Shown one piece after another: positions 33,758 through 40,152 of a stretch of DNA of 64,000 bases. The position numbers and the translations under genes are program-made. The notes under the pieces are model-generated. The model was not told the origin of the DNA, made no database searches, and worked only from the letters and a program-made list of their open reading frames with translations. The stretch's first letter is position 1; each line of letters begins with the position of its first letter. The stretch is from Bacteroidota bacterium (GTDB lineage Bacteria > Bacteroidota > Bacteroidia > Bacteroidales > FEN-979), in assembly GCA_026391805.1 (NCBI GenBank), contig JAPLDJ010000018.1, positions 1-64,000 of the forward strand, given 5' to 3'.

Positions 33758-34177
33758 TTAGCCCCTGCTTTTAAACGCCAACGCGTACAATTTCATTTGC
33801 TTGATCATCGAAGTAAGCCCGTTGGAACGGGTCGGGGAAAGATGCTCCCGCAGCCCGATCTGATCGATGAAATCCATGTCGGCATCAAGGATCTCATCCG
33901 GGGAATGACCGGATAATACGCGGATCAGCAGGTTCACGATCCCCTTTGTGATGATGGCATCACTGTCGGCGCTGAAGTATACCACGCCTTCGAGGTATTT
34001 TGCATTCAGCCATACCTTCGACTGGCATCCGCTGATCACAAACTGATCGGTTTTGTATTGTTCGTCGATCACCGGAAGGGATCTCCCCATCTCGATGAGG
34101 TAATTATACTTATCCATCCAGTCCTCGAAGAGCGAAAATTCAGCGACGACCTGTTCCTGTACTTCAGCGATTGTCAT
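33758..34177 (-). CDS. sufE: Cysteine desulfurization protein SufE
   Basis: 139 residues. SufE takes persulfide sulfur from SufS and passes it to the SufBCD scaffold. The acceptor Cys is in VISGCQSKVWL, and the fold-typical GHSPDEILDADMDFIDQIGLREHLSPTRSNGL follows. Last gene of the suf operon, 14 bp after sufS. Confidence 0.93.
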   Translation of the reverse strand: MTIAEVQEQVVAEFSLFEDWMDKYNYLIEMGRSLPVIDEQYKTDQFVISGCQSKVWLNAKYLEGVVYFSADSDAIITKGIVNLLIRVLSGHSPDEILDADMDFIDQIGLREHLSPTRSNGLTSMIKQMKLYALAFKSRG

Positions 34178-34191
34178 AGCAAGGGAGTAAA

Positions 34192-35415
34192 TTATCCAAA
34201 CATCTGTTTTACCTTCAGAATGGCTTCAACCATCAGGTCGATCTCTTCAGTAGTATTGTAGAATGCGAACGAAGCCCTGACGGTGGCCGGGATCTTATAC
34301 CATTCCAGCAGCGGCATGGCACAATGATGACCTGTCCGGACCGCAATACCCATTTTGTCGATGATGACGCCGGCATCGTAAGGATGAATGCTGCCGATCA
34401 GGAAGGAGATGAGGCTGGTCTTTTCCTTTGCCGTCCCGATGATACGGATATCACCCATGGCTGTCAGTTTCTCTGTCGCATAATCCAGGAGCTCCTTTTC
34501 ATATACGGCGATATTTTCCATACCGAGTTCCTGAATGTAGCTGATAGCTACCCTTAGTCCATAAACACCCTCTACATTCGGTGTTCCGGCTTCAAATTTA
34601 AATGGAAGGTCGTTGAATGTGGTTCCGCTGAGATGAACCTCTTTTATCATCTCCCCGCCCGACTGGTAAGGCGGCATGGCATCCAGGTATTTCTCCTTCC
34701 CATAAAGAACGCCGATGCCCATCGGTGCGTACATCTTATGCCCGGAGAAGCAGTAGAAATCGCAGTCGAGATCCTTCACATCCGCGCCCAGGTGCGAGAT
34801 CGATTGCGCACCATCCACAAGAACCGGGATCCCGAAGGTATGGGCATGCTGAATGATCTCCTTCACCGGGTTGATCGTCCCGAGCACATTGGAAACATGC
34901 GTGATTGCAATGATCTTTGTCCGTTCATTCACCATTCCCCTGAAGGCATTCATGTCCAGTTCCCCTGACTCAACGATCGGGATGATCCTGAGCTTTGCTC
35001 CCCGTTCCTGGCACATCAGCTGCCACGGGACAAAATTCGAATGATGCTCCATCACCGAGACGATCACTTCATCGCCCGGATTTACATATTGTTTTCCGTA
35101 GGAAGATGCAACAAGGTTGATCGACTCAGTGGTACCCCTGGTGAAGATGATCTCCTGGGAGGAGGCGGCATTGATGAATTGCCGGATCTGTTTCCGCGTA
35201 TCTTCATATACCTCTGTAGCCCGTTGGCTCAGGTAATGAACGCCCCGGTGGATGTTGCAGTTGTCGGTCTCATAGTACCCGCTGATCGCCCTGATGACCT
35301 GCACCGGTTTCTGCGTCGACGCAGCATTGTCAAAATAAACCAGCGGTCTTCCATATACTGTCTGATTCAGTATTGGAAAATCCTTCCGGATCAAATCGAC
35401 GGGGAAGTTGGTCAT
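34192..35415 (-). CDS. sufS: Cysteine desulfurase SufS
   Basis: 407 residues. PLP enzyme that removes sulfur from cysteine. Visible: YLDNAAST-type opening (VYFDNAASTQKP), FTRGTTESINLVA, VLVDGAQSISH, the PLP lysine in DFYCFSGHKMYAPMGIGVLYG, and the sulfur-carrying Cys in VRTGHHCAMPLLEW. It follows sufD after a 150-bp spacer filled by repeats and precedes sufE. Confidence 0.95.
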   Translation of the reverse strand: MTNFPVDLIRKDFPILNQTVYGRPLVYFDNAASTQKPVQVIRAISGYYETDNCNIHRGVHYLSQRATEVYEDTRKQIRQFINAASSQEIIFTRGTTESINLVASSYGKQYVNPGDEVIVSVMEHHSNFVPWQLMCQERGAKLRIIPIVESGELDMNAFRGMVNERTKIIAITHVSNVLGTINPVKEIIQHAHTFGIPVLVDGAQSISHLGADVKDLDCDFYCFSGHKMYAPMGIGVLYGKEKYLDAMPPYQSGGEMIKEVHLSGTTFNDLPFKFEAGTPNVEGVYGLRVAISYIQELGMENIAVYEKELLDYATEKLTAMGDIRIIGTAKEKTSLISFLIGSIHPYDAGVIIDKMGIAVRTGHHCAMPLLEWYKIPATVRASFAFYNTTEEIDLMVEAILKVKQMFG

Positions 35416-35453
35416 AAGTTATTCGATTTTGATTTTTAGCTTGTAGCTTTTTA

Positions 35454-35570
35454 TTTCACCACAGATTACACAGATTATCACAGATTTGATCACAGAAAAT
35501 AATATGAATATCTATCTTCTATACTCTATCCTCTATCCTCTATTCTCAGACCTCTGACCTCCGCCTCAGA
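35454..35570. repeat. CACAGATT and CTCTATCCTCTATTCTC repeats between sufD and sufS
   Basis: Units caccacagattacacagatt and cctctatcctctattctcag followed by gacctctgacctcc. Related to the copies at 37830, 41971, 45913 and 46114. They occupy nearly all of the sufD-sufS spacer. Confidence 0.6.
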
Positions 35571-36975
35571 TCTTCGAAATATCAATATCAAACTCCATCG
35601 GGTGTTCCGGCGTGCTGCAATGGAGAACGCACTGTTCGCAAATCTGCAGCTCTCCCTGGAGCCGTTTCTTGATCATGTCCTCGATGCGGTGACGCAGTTC
35701 GGGAATGGCGATCTTTCCGACGATCTCATTGGCAAAGGCAAACATCAGGAGCATGCGGGCGCTTTCGGGTCCGATGCCGCGCTGCATCAGGTAAAACATC
35801 GCTTCGGTGTCAAGCTGGCCGGTGGTTGATCCGTGGCTGCATTTGACATCATCCGCATATATTTCGAGGAACGGCTTGGAATTCACTTTGGCCGTATCGG
35901 TTAATAGGATGTTGCGGTTGCTCTGGTAGGCGTTGGTCTTCTGTGCATCCTTTCGTACCAGCACATGGCCGTTGAACACACCGCTGGCATTTTCATCCAG
36001 GATGCCTTTGAACATCTCCTTGCTTATGCATCCGGGTGCAAGATGATCGACAAATACGTGGTTGTCGATGTGCTGCTTGCGGTCCATCAGGTAAAGCCCG
36101 TGAATATTGGCAGTACCGTCCGGTCCGTTAAAAAGCACATTGGTGTTGTTCCTCAGCATTCCTCCGTTCAGGGTGATGAAGGTGGAGGCGAGTTCGGCCC
36201 CTTTCTCCAGCTGGAAATCAGTATTGCTGATCAGCGTCGAGTTGTTGTTCAGGTTCTGGAGCTTGTAATGATCAAGGAAAGCTCCTTCATCCAGGTGAAC
36301 CTCGGTGACAATGTTTGAAAAGCTGGCCTGGTGGTTATAGGAGTCATCGCAGTGGACCAGAGACAGGCGGGCATTCTTCCCCAGCAGGATCAGGTTACGG
36401 GACTGGAGAAACAGGTTCTCATCGTGGTGGATAACATTGATCAGCTGGATCGGTTTTGGGCTGTGAACGCCATCCGGTACATAAATGAAAATTCCATCCT
36501 GGGCAAAGGCCGTGTTCAGGTCGGTTAGGCTGTTTTTGCCGGTGATGGCATATCGGCCAAAATGTTTTTCGATGAGTTCAGGATAGGCTTTGAACGCTTC
36601 GGCCAGGCTGCCGAGGATCATCCCGTTCCCAAGTTTTATCAGCGGGACATCCTTCGAAACGTACCACCCGTTCAGCTGTCCGATGATGGCCGTATCGAGG
36701 TGCGGAATGTTGCATCGGAAAACCTCCTGAACATCCATTCCGGGCAGCGGCTCAAAATAATAATCATACGGTTTCCCCAGCCACTCTTTCAGATCGGTAT
36801 TTTTCCAGGCTTCCAGCTTAGTGGTCGGGAATCCCAGTCCCGCAAAAGACTCAAATGCCGTGTCCCGCAACCGGGTAACCATTGTCGGATCATTTTTGAC
36901 GATCACCTCCCGGTTCTTCTCAAAAAGCCCGGTCATCCTTTCTTTTGTGATGATCTCTTTGACGTCGCTTATCAT
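35566..36975 (-). CDS. sufD: Fe-S cluster assembly scaffold protein SufD
   Basis: 469 residues from MISDVKEII; the frame is open upstream but that part overlaps sufC. Right-handed beta-helix scaffold subunit that pairs with SufB and the ATPase SufC. Visible: GFPTTKLEAWKNTDLKEW, GVHSPKPIQLINVIH, NVLFNGPDGTANIHGLYLMDRKQHIDNHVFVDH, KCSHGSTTGQLDTEAMFYLMQRGI (helix-end motif with the conserved His) and LRHRIEDMIKKRL. Start lies 25 bp after the sufC stop. Confidence 0.94.
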   Translation of the reverse strand: MISDVKEIITKERMTGLFEKNREVIVKNDPTMVTRLRDTAFESFAGLGFPTTKLEAWKNTDLKEWLGKPYDYYFEPLPGMDVQEVFRCNIPHLDTAIIGQLNGWYVSKDVPLIKLGNGMILGSLAEAFKAYPELIEKHFGRYAITGKNSLTDLNTAFAQDGIFIYVPDGVHSPKPIQLINVIHHDENLFLQSRNLILLGKNARLSLVHCDDSYNHQASFSNIVTEVHLDEGAFLDHYKLQNLNNNSTLISNTDFQLEKGAELASTFITLNGGMLRNNTNVLFNGPDGTANIHGLYLMDRKQHIDNHVFVDHLAPGCISKEMFKGILDENASGVFNGHVLVRKDAQKTNAYQSNRNILLTDTAKVNSKPFLEIYADDVKCSHGSTTGQLDTEAMFYLMQRGIGPESARMLLMFAFANEIVGKIAIPELRHRIEDMIKKRLQGELQICEQCVLHCSTPEHPMEFDIDISKI

Positions 36976-37000: not shown

Positions 37001-37753
37001 CTATTCAAATTCTTTCTTGATCCAGTCGTATCCCTTTTCTTCCAGTTCAAGGGCAAGTTCTTTCTTGCCCGACTTGACGATCTTTCCCTGGAAGAGGACA
37101 TGAACATAATCAGGTACAATGTAATCGAGAAGACGCTGGTAATGTGTAATTACAACGAAAGCATTTTCTTTTGTGCGGAGTTTGTTCACGCCGTTGGCGA
37201 CGATCCGCAGGGCGTCGATATCGAGCCCGGAATCGGTTTCGTCGAGGATCGCCAGCGTAGGCTCCAGCATGGCCATCTGGAAGATCTCGTTCTTTTTCTT
37301 TTCACCGCCCGAAAAACCTTCATTCACCGAACGGTTGGTAAGATTTGACTGAATTTCGACCAGCCGTTTGTTTTCCTCCATCAGCTTCAGGAATTCGATG
37401 GCGGCAATGGGATCGAGTCCGCGGTATTTTCGTATTTCATTTACGGCCGTCCGCATAAAATTGGTGATGCTTACTCCGGGAATTTCCACAGGATACTGGA
37501 ACCCCATGAAGATCCCTTCCCGTGCCCTGTCTTCGACCGGAAGTTTGAGAAGGTTCTTTCCCTTGTATGTGATCTCCCCTTCGGTCACGTCGAATACTTC
37601 ACGTCCGGCAATCACCGACGCCAAGGTACTTTTACCGGTCCCGTTCGGACCCATTATGGCATGGACTTCTCCTTTATTGACCTCAAGGTTGATGCCCTTC
37701 AGGATCTCTTTCCCCTTGATTGAAGCGTGAAGGTTTTTTATTGATAACAGCAT
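37001..37753 (-). CDS. sufC: Fe-S cluster assembly ATPase SufC
   Basis: 250 residues. ABC-type ATPase driving the SufBCD complex. Walker A GPNGTGKSTL, Q-loop region GFQYPVEIPGV, ABC signature SGGEKKKNE, Walker B LAILDETDSGLD and the switch His (VVITHYQRLLDYI) are all present. It lies between the interrupted sufB (upstream, with a repeat-filled spacer of 159 bp) and sufD. Confidence 0.96.
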   Translation of the reverse strand: MLLSIKNLHASIKGKEILKGINLEVNKGEVHAIMGPNGTGKSTLASVIAGREVFDVTEGEITYKGKNLLKLPVEDRAREGIFMGFQYPVEIPGVSITNFMRTAVNEIRKYRGLDPIAAIEFLKLMEENKRLVEIQSNLTNRSVNEGFSGGEKKKNEIFQMAMLEPTLAILDETDSGLDIDALRIVANGVNKLRTKENAFVVITHYQRLLDYIVPDYVHVLFQGKIVKSGKKELALELEEKGYDWIKKEFE

Positions 37754-37763
37754 TCTGTTTACG

Positions 37764-37900
37764 GTTTACGGTTTACGATTTATTTCGTGTTTTTCGTGTC
37801 TTCTTCGTGGATTTTCGTGTAATAATTCATTTACCACAGATTTCACAGATTACACAGATTTTCTTTTTGTCACTCTGTCACTTTGTTACTTTGTCACTTG
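37764..37900. repeat. Long direct repeat (TTTATTTCGTGTTTTTCGTG ... CACAGATT ... TTACTTTGTCACT), copy 1
   Basis: Occupies the sufB-sufC spacer. Its core at about 37779-37862 matches 41918-42000 almost base for base, and the flanking gtttacggtttacg and ttactttgtcact parts are also related. Both copies lie immediately in front of a minus-strand start codon. Confidence 0.75.
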
Positions 37901-37912
37901 TCATCTATTCAA

Positions 37913-39361
37913 TTACCCCACACTTCCTTCCAAGCTGATTGATAAAAGCTTCTGCGCTTCGACGGCGAATTCCATCGGAAGCTGTTTGAGTACCTCTTTG
38001 GCATAGCCGTTTACAATAAGCCCAATGGCGCTTTCCATGTCGATGCCTCGCTGCTGACAATAGAAAAGCTGGTCTTCCGAGATTTTGGAAGTCGTTGCTT
38101 CATGTTCCACAATGGAAGATTTGTTTTCCACCTGGATGTACGGGAAGGTATGTGCACCGCATTTATCGCCCAGCAAAAGTGAATCGCACTGCGAATAATT
38201 CCGTGAATTCACCGCGTTCTTCGAGATCCTGACCAGTCCGCGGTAGCTGTTCTGGCCATGCCCGGCCGAGATCCCCTTGGAGATGATCGTGCTGCGTGTA
38301 TTCTTGCCGAGGTGCTGCATCTTGGTGCCGGTATCGGCCTGCTGCATGTTGTTGGTAACGGCGACAGAATAGAATTCGCCCACCGAATTGTCGCCAAGCA
38401 GGATGCAGCTGGGTTATTTCCAGGTGATGGCGGAACCGGTCTCCACCTGTGTCCAGGAGATCTTGGAATTGCTTCCCTTGCAGATTCCCCGCTTGGTTAC
38501 AAAGTTAAAGATCCCGCCTTCGCCTTTCTTATTTCCGGGGTACCAGTTCTGCACGGTGGAATATTTCACTTCGGCATCTTTCATGGCCACGATCTCCACG
38601 ATGGCGGCATGAAGCTGGTTCTCGTCGCGCTGCGGGGCCGTACACCCTTCCATGTAACTCACATATGCGCCTTCCTCCGCAACGATGAGCGTCCGTTCAA
38701 ACTGACCGGTATTGGCGGCATTGATCCTGAAATAGGTGGAGAGCTCTACCGGGCAGCGTACTCCTTTCGGAATATAGCAGAAGGATCCGTCGGTGAACAC
38801 CGCTGAATTCAGGGCTGCAAAATAGTTATCGGTATAAGGCACTACCGATCCCATGTATTGTTTTACAAGATCGGGATGCTTTTGAACGGCATCGCTGAAC
38901 GAGCAGAAGATGATACCGTGTTTTGAAAGGGTTTCAGTGAAGGTGGTCTTGACCGAAACACTGTCGATGACAGCATCCACGGCAACGCCTGAAAGTTTTT
39001 TCTGCTCTTCAAGTGAGATCCCCAGCTTGGTAAAGGTATCCCGCAACTCCGGATCAACCTCGTCGAGGCTGGTTAGTTCTTTTTTCTTTTTCGGTGCTGC
39101 ATAAAAGATGATATCCTGGAAATTGATCTCGGGAATATTCAGATGAGCCCACTTGGGCATCTTCATGGTAAGCCAGTGGCGATAAGCCTTCAGGCGGAAT
39201 TCAAGGAGGAATTCAGGTTCGTTTTTTTTGGCGGAAATGAAACGAATGATATCTTCATTCAGCCCTTTCGGGGCCATATCCATATCGATGTTTGTGACGA
39301 ACCCGTATTTATATTCACCCTGGGTAAACTCATTCAGTACTTTATTGGATTCGGATTCCAT
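37913..39361 (-). pseudogene. sufB: sufB with one in-frame TAA stop codon
   Basis: First gene of the sufBCDSE operon. Residues 1-315 are a normal SufB N-terminal part ([55 protein letters not shown], then [13 protein letters not shown]). The next codon, at 38416-38414, is TAA; without any frame change the family sequence resumes as PSCILLGD, then [52 protein letters not shown] and [24 protein letters not shown] to 37913. SufB has Tyr here (WKYPSC), so one base (TAC or TAT to TAA) explains it. The part after the stop holds the Cys and His/Glu region known to be needed for cluster building. It may be a real nonsense mutation, a sequence error or readthrough. Confidence 0.93.
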
Positions 39362-39438: not shown

Positions 39439-39570
39439 CGAATAATCCGTGGATGCAGGTTTTTCCCAGACTATTTTGAAGAAAAAGTGATGATCGGGGT
39501 ATTACCTTTTGATAGTTAAAACGATTAAGGGATACCTTGAGTGTTGAGGAGTAAAGGAAAATTACCAGGA

Positions 39571-40152
39571 ATGACACTATTTCAAAATAAATACCGTATT
39601 GAGACGACGCGGCTAAAGGGATGGGATTATTCAAAACCCGGTGCATATTTTATCACCATCGTAACAAAAAACCGTGAATGGTTATTTGGTAATATTGTGG
39701 TTAATGAAATGATGCTGAACGATGCCGGAAACATTGCACAACAATCGTATTTGGATATACCCAATCATTTTCCAAACGTGAAATTGGATGCATTTATCAT
39801 TATGCCCAATCACGTTCACGGAATTATTTTTATTACCGAAAATCATGTAGACGCGCAAAATTTTGCGCCTCTATCGATTACAATCCCCGTTCCCGCAATG
39901 GCAGAGACGCAAAATTTTGCGTCTCTGCCATATAAAAACCAATTCGGTCCGCAATCCAAAAATTTGGCATCCATTGTCCGGGGTTTTAAAATTGGCGTGA
40001 CAAAATGGTTTCGGGAAAATAATAACCAAAATTCCATCTGGCAACCACGATTCCACGATCACATTATACGGAATGATGAATCATTACAAAGAATCCGTGA
40101 TTATATTGAAAACAATCCGAAAGCCTGGAACAAGGGTACATTCTTCCGTTAA
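39571..40152 (+). CDS. REP-associated tyrosine transposase (IS200-like Y1 HUH family)
   Basis: 193 residues from ATG at 39571; an in-frame GTG at 39541 would add ten. Y1-transposase signs: YFITIVTKNREWLFG, FIIMPNHVHGIIFI with the HUH (HVH) motif, and LASIVRGFKIGVTKWFRE before IWQPRFHDHIIRNDESLQRIRDYIENNPKAW, the family C-terminus. The metal-binding and Tyr-helix regions look intact. RAYTs cut single-stranded REP palindromes and are usually domesticated. The linker between the HUH motif and the Tyr helix holds two palindromic DNA units, read as QNFAPL and QNFASL. No flanking terminal inverted repeats were seen. Confidence 0.88.
   Translation: MTLFQNKYRIETTRLKGWDYSKPGAYFITIVTKNREWLFGNIVVNEMMLNDAGNIAQQSYLDIPNHFPNVKLDAFIIMPNHVHGIIFITENHVDAQNFAPLSITIPVPAMAETQNFASLPYKNQFGPQSKNLASIVRGFKIGVTKWFRENNNQNSIWQPRFHDHIIRNDESLQRIRDYIENNPKAWNKGTFFR
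39853..39868. repeat. 16-bp perfect palindrome inside the RAYT gene, unit 1
   Basis: The sequence gcgcaaaattttgcgc is its own reverse complement and shares the core gcaaaattttgc with the longer palindrome 54 bp downstream. The pair is in frame, 18 codons apart. Confidence 0.85.
39898..39931. repeat. 34-bp perfect palindrome inside the RAYT gene, unit 2
   Basis: Each base from 39898 to 39914 pairs with its partner from 39931 back to 39915, around the centre gcaaaattttgc with arms gcagagac/gtctctgc. It is a REP-like cruciform-forming unit within coding sequence. Confidence 0.9.

Follow-up and report, generated by a model that had tools for sequence, protein, structure and literature searches.

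The window analysed here, the whole stretch of 64,000 nt, carries an ordinary SUF operon, and we consider it most probable (about 85%) that the nonsense codon in its sufB gene stems from one substitution that is not fixed. Such a substitution would be either an error in the consensus or a minority or very recent allele. We lean slightly toward an error of sequencing or assembly, to which we give roughly even odds, with a minority or very recent allele a real though somewhat less probable possibility. On the minus strand, the frame that opens with the ATG at 39361 translates as SufB up to a TAA at codon 316 (38416–38414; ...SAITWK in front of the stop, PSCILLGDN... behind it), then runs on free of stops to codon 482, where the terminal TAA follows (37915–37913; Table 1). 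With X written at codon 316, the translation matched two profiles over their whole length, NCBIfam NF008773 with 896.5 bits (cut-off 717) and TIGR01980 with 635.9 bits (cut-off 346.4), and in the genome copy the SufBD match includes 1 TAA, as does the SufB alignment over codons 1–482. Measured against SufB as defined by these two profiles, the window copy differs by this one in-frame TAA, which interrupts an otherwise continuous reading frame. It resembles the SufB subunit of the SufBC2D complex (PDB 5awf, chain A), to which it aligns over 16–482 with key residues on both sides of the stop, as well as in the gene order sufBCDSE. The preliminary description of this DNA, which had reported an in-frame TAA in an otherwise complete sufB and a remaining coding sequence without damage, is confirmed on both counts, as the genome copy reads the same and no further stop or frame change was found.

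Table 1. Features of the suf operon and of the interrupted sufB gene (positions in the window)
Feature	Position	Strand	Remark
sufB frame including terminal TAA	37913..39361	-	482 codons before the terminator, one of them the internal TAA; NF008773, TIGR01980
Internal TAA, sufB codon 316	38414..38416	-	Codes for Tyr in the 109 other rows of the comparison
N-terminal piece, 315 codons	38417..39361	-	Cys240 retained, cluster site gone
Piece behind the stop	37916..38413	-	Cys392, His420, Glu421, C-terminal domain; constraint unrelaxed
GTG-start ORF, 156 aa, from the mechanical ORF list	37913..38383	-	Candidate second half of a two-piece SufB
sufC	37001..37753	-	No stop or frame change
sufD	35566..36975	-	No stop or frame change (35569–36972 tested, without first codon and stop)
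sufS	34192..35415	-	No stop or frame change
sufE	33758..34177	-	No stop or frame change

The other genes of the operon, sufCDSE, had been described as undamaged as well, and profile and tblastn comparisons indeed revealed 0 stops or frame changes in them. Directly upstream of sufB, on the opposite strand, lies an ORF (39541–40152, +) that we take to be REP-associated (Y1-type) transposase-like; the palindrome GGCAGAGACGCAAAATTTTGCGTCTCTGCC is situated within its frame. By eye, the suf intergenic segments 37754–37912 and 35416–35565 contain similar short repeats rich in A+T (TGACAAAG..., AATCTGTG...).

The 111 SufB locus rows carry TAT (63), TAC (46) or TAA (2) at codon 316. Both TAA rows represent the window's own genome, which is duplicated in the set, as are some other records under different locus ids; Tyr occupies the position in 109/109 of the other rows. 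The four congeners have TAT, TAC, TAC and TAT here, so that the stop may descend from either Tyr codon by a single transversion. The notion that one substitution turned the family's Tyr codon into a stop is thereby substantiated. Conservation of the stop, as would be looked for at a programmed readthrough site, was seen in 0/109 of the other rows. The scan of genome contigs for relatives covered the best 80 loci, with protein identities of at most 89%, and may omit records of the same or a very near genome; it yielded no other genome of the species, the congeners having only 80–85% DNA identity. A DNA pattern spanning codon 316 gave 0 matches in viral contigs.

According to PMC5571166, Cys254 of E. 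coli SufB is the acceptor of the sulfur delivered by SufE, Cys405 and Glu434 together with His360 of SufD are the likely site where new clusters arise, and the C-terminal helical domain of SufB binds SufC. In the alignment to 5awf, codons 240, 392, 420 and 421 of the window gene correspond to Cys254, Cys405, His433 and Glu434, such that the equivalents of Cys254 (38644–38642), Cys405 (38188–38186) and Glu434 (38101–38099) are all present in the full frame. Judged by this correspondence, a 315-residue product would keep the Cys254 equivalent but lose those of Cys405, His433 and Glu434. That truncation removes the Cys and His/Glu residues of the cluster site, as initially proposed, is borne out by the location of codons 392, 420 and 421, all 3' of the stop.

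Whether the organism could dispense with SufB depends on the rest of its genome (3.89 Mb in 28 contigs, 98.34% complete), which we infer to be a metagenome assembly from the number of contigs and from the fact that 73 of the 80 listed relatives are labelled as MAGs. In the whole assembly, PF01458 (SufBD) matched sufB and sufD only, and a second SufB-like protein is thus absent from the matches; scaffolds of the SMS type are likewise expected to belong to the SufBD family (one of the aligned relatives, MJ0034 of M. jannaschii, is named as a SufBD-family protein). PF01592 (NifU_N) gave 0 matches in the genome, the same search being positive in 12/14 control genomes, and this domain is lacking in 42/43 genomes of the family, our own included. 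Suf is hence the sole Fe-S scaffold system found in the genome, in agreement with its presumed role as the main one, while the idea that another Fe-S system had taken over is not supported: neither a second intact sufB nor iscU/nifU came to light anywhere in the assembly. Fe-S clusters are evidently needed, since the genome contains 36 radical-SAM places, none of them with an internal stop. With clusters needed and no substitute at hand, we infer that fixation of a SufB loss would kill the cells or come close to it, and that an intact allele is accordingly present in them.

The exception among the family genomes, G020, deserves a remark of its own. It has the only NifU_N match of the 43 genomes (L159 9548–9904), next to ORFs that appear Mrp-like and NifX-like by eye, and on its contig QYQJ01000157.1 (L042 333–3985) sufD splits into two frames near residue 368. 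G+C content is 45% for L159 and 52% for L042. The Suf operon of this genome may be in real decay, or the assembly may be rich in errors.

We also asked how the two parts of sufB have evolved, counting as private changes those codons at which the four congeners agree and the window sufB differs. Behind the stop there were 10 synonymous and 1 nonsynonymous changes, in front of it 12 and 5. Full neutrality of the part behind the stop is incompatible with these counts (P = 1.3e-5), and the neutral share of the branch comes out below about 15%, a rough bound that takes the congeners' 35:8 as the constraint and is affected by synonymous sites near saturation (dS 1.2–1.7 where computable; L007 gave no dS value). 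Compared with the congeners' own 35:8, the part behind the stop showed no difference (P = 0.67). A slight, unexplained excess of nonsynonymous changes was observed in the part preceding the stop (5/17 versus 8/81 in the congeners; P = 0.046). The hallmarks of a pseudogene, relaxed constraint or further lesions, were thus not found behind the stop, where the ratio is 10:1 and no second stop or frame change occurs. Going by these codon changes, selection acted on the part behind the stop until very recently, or still acts on it.

Among the alternatives to a non-fixed change, the one that survives best is a recent and fixed loss of SufB, its function being replaced by a second SufB, a scaffold of the ISC, NIF or MIS type, an SMS system or supply from outside; we regard it as improbable. 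The stop does remove the Cys405 and Glu434 equivalents, and the nonsynonymous excess in front of it could be read as weakened selection, although such an excess is absent behind the stop. A loss confined to the final ~15% of the branch would not show in the counts of private changes, and the bound on neutral time leaves room for SufB having truly been lost not long ago on a long branch. Against this, the required replacement did not show up, neither as a second SufBD protein nor as a NifU_N domain (at 98.34% completeness, a missed gene is conceivable but unlikely), sufCDSE are undamaged, and Fe-S enzymes are still encoded, with all radical-SAM places free of stops.

Slightly less probable still is readthrough of the TAA, by way of a suppressor tRNA, a recoding element or leaky termination, which would give rise to full-length SufB from the sequence as it is. 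Unrelaxed constraint behind the stop would be in line with this, and so, at first sight, would be the finding that the 100 nt directly 3' of the TAA fold better than shuffled sequences (z -3.06 and -3.23). However, a 100-nt window placed across the stop shows no structure (z +1.07), and the Tyr-bearing congener L004 folds equally well behind codon 316 (z -3.03); for the other 28 relatives, 27 values were above -1.3 and that of L010 was -2.23. Within the suf operon itself, 4/276 windows reached z <= -3, the lowest being located at the sufS start (35302–35401, minus strand; z -5.2 over 100 nt), and windows starting just before or behind the stop were not among the 12 lowest. A readthrough element behind the stop was therefore rejected, as the stop-spanning window lacks structure and the Tyr congener as well as stop-free operon windows fold alike; no stimulating RNA structure peculiar to the gene with the stop emerged, with L004 equal and operon windows at equal or lower z.

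Rfam searches yielded 38 tRNA hits, 37 of which were typed by ARAGORN, run on loci covering all 38, and a stop anticodon was present in none of the 37, a set that is incomplete in containing no Glu tRNA, so that a suppressor outside it is conceivable. The lack of, for example, tRNA-Glu in a genome 98.34% complete is an observation in its own right; some tRNA genes probably reside in unassembled rRNA operons. The remaining hit (L147 8160–8218) comprises only the 3' part of a tRNA; we read its anticodon loop by eye as UAC (Val), and it may be a scar left behind by an element that had integrated. Further to the disadvantage of readthrough, TAA ends 71/172 of the coding-scored segments, and the stop is not shared by any of the 109 other locus rows. 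Stop-codon readthrough, one of the options originally considered, thus finds no support in stop conservation, in a specific RNA element or in a stop anticodon among the 37 typed tRNAs.

A two-piece SufB, with residues 1–315 made from the normal start, the remainder produced by re-initiation at the in-frame GTG at 38383, and the two halves associating non-covalently, appears hardly credible: the 156-aa ORF behind the stop does still match the SufB profiles, but the split is again without counterpart in the 109 other rows, the GTG start is only a mechanical candidate, and positions 38413–38384 would be lost from inside the beta-helix core (domain named after PMC5571166). Taken as a whole, the view that the TAA is fixed and that cells express their sole Fe-S scaffold gene across it, be it by a Tyr-inserting suppressor, by stem-aided readthrough or as two associating pieces, strikes us as very unlikely. 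Were the stop to prove fixed and decoded, expression of an essential bacterial gene would proceed through an in-frame UAA. This would be genuinely surprising, but the evidence points elsewhere.

If the base is simply wrong, or the allele a rare one, it is relevant how frequent internal stops are in this genome. When the window and 16 further stretches (356,194 bases, 9.2% of the genome) were scanned by codon usage, the sufB stop, with coding signal continuing uninterrupted to either side, ranked first of 19 internal-stop candidates and thereby exceeds what chance would give. Twelve of the other 18 were shadows inside longer ORFs (>=268 codons) in another frame and the remaining 6 were gene junctions as read by eye, leaving no other clear internal stop in the 356 kb. 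We also sought frame changes in two 20-kb congener blocks, where every ORF match with at least 55% identity aligned in one piece. Stop-bearing rows were confined to two sufB rows, one 275-aa congener protein that extends a single residue beyond the normal end in the window (stop at position 274/275), and three short rows that lie antisense to the suf genes and represent shadow frames; among true genes of these blocks, only sufB has a stop well inside. Since TAA is in use as a terminator, it is not reassigned. Genome-wide recoding or a generally bad assembly was consequently rejected, no other lesion having been found in the stretches examined. As internal stops are this rare here, only a single isolated error can be invoked, not a high error rate.

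To place the stop in a wider context, 334 genomes of the order were searched, of which 320 had a SufB match (96/100 plus 224/234 further ones; at least 8 of the 320 partial). One of the searches matched 281/295 genomes, and new genomes outside its listed rows were searched again. A single internal sufB stop occurs in 3/320 genomes, each time at a different codon: besides the window's genome, these are G020, with TGA at codon 439 (Gly in the window protein), and G191 (L160 8114–9559), with TAA at codon 373, a Tyr position, where tblastn showed no stops in the accompanying sufC, sufD, sufS and sufE. The different codons argue against a programmed site and fit sporadic errors or alleles. Like the window gene, both of these sufB copies have a single stop in an otherwise full-length gene; they differ from it in the codon affected and, for G020, in the additional sufD frame change. 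No stop was present among the rows listed for the controls GroEL (145/149 genomes matched) and GyrB (142/144 matched, best row for 139). The difference between SufB and these controls is not significant (P = 0.25; P = 0.50 without the index case), a weak test in that the controls comprise about 149 genomes within which the index case is the only SufB stop, and these numbers do not show sufB to be specially prone to stops.

The sufB stop is, on our reading, an event of an ordinary kind. Among strain pseudogenes of Chlamydia pecorum, described in PMC4137089, stops likewise arose from a single base; as far as the available text goes, sufB of that species lies in an SNP-rich region and the nonsense genes named are others. 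The window sufB deviates from such point-nonsense pseudogenes, as portrayed there, in having no second lesion, no relaxed constraint and apparently no substitute. A natural nonsense codon in sufB was not found among the listed titles and abstract beginnings of one open-access library, which is not proof of absence.

In favor of a non-fixed change, the invariant Tyr (109/109), the missing substitute scaffold, the need for clusters, the 10:1 constraint behind the stop and the sporadic stops in other sufB copies can be put forward. Speaking against it are the rarity of internal stops, which were missing from the rows listed for GroEL and GyrB and were not clearly seen anywhere else in the 356 kb scanned, and the nonsynonymous excess in front of the stop (P = 0.046). 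Of the four explanations first entertained for the stop, assembly error and strain polymorphism have thus held up, whereas a takeover by another Fe-S system and readthrough have not. The base at codon 316 would then be wrong in the consensus or belong to an allele that is in the minority in the population or arose very recently. In the living organism, sufB is very probably whole and would give rise to a normal 482-residue SufB that acts as scaffold together with SufC and SufD. If the stop is indeed an error or a minority allele, it calls for caution, as automatic annotation would call the organism sufB-deficient or the gene a pseudogene.
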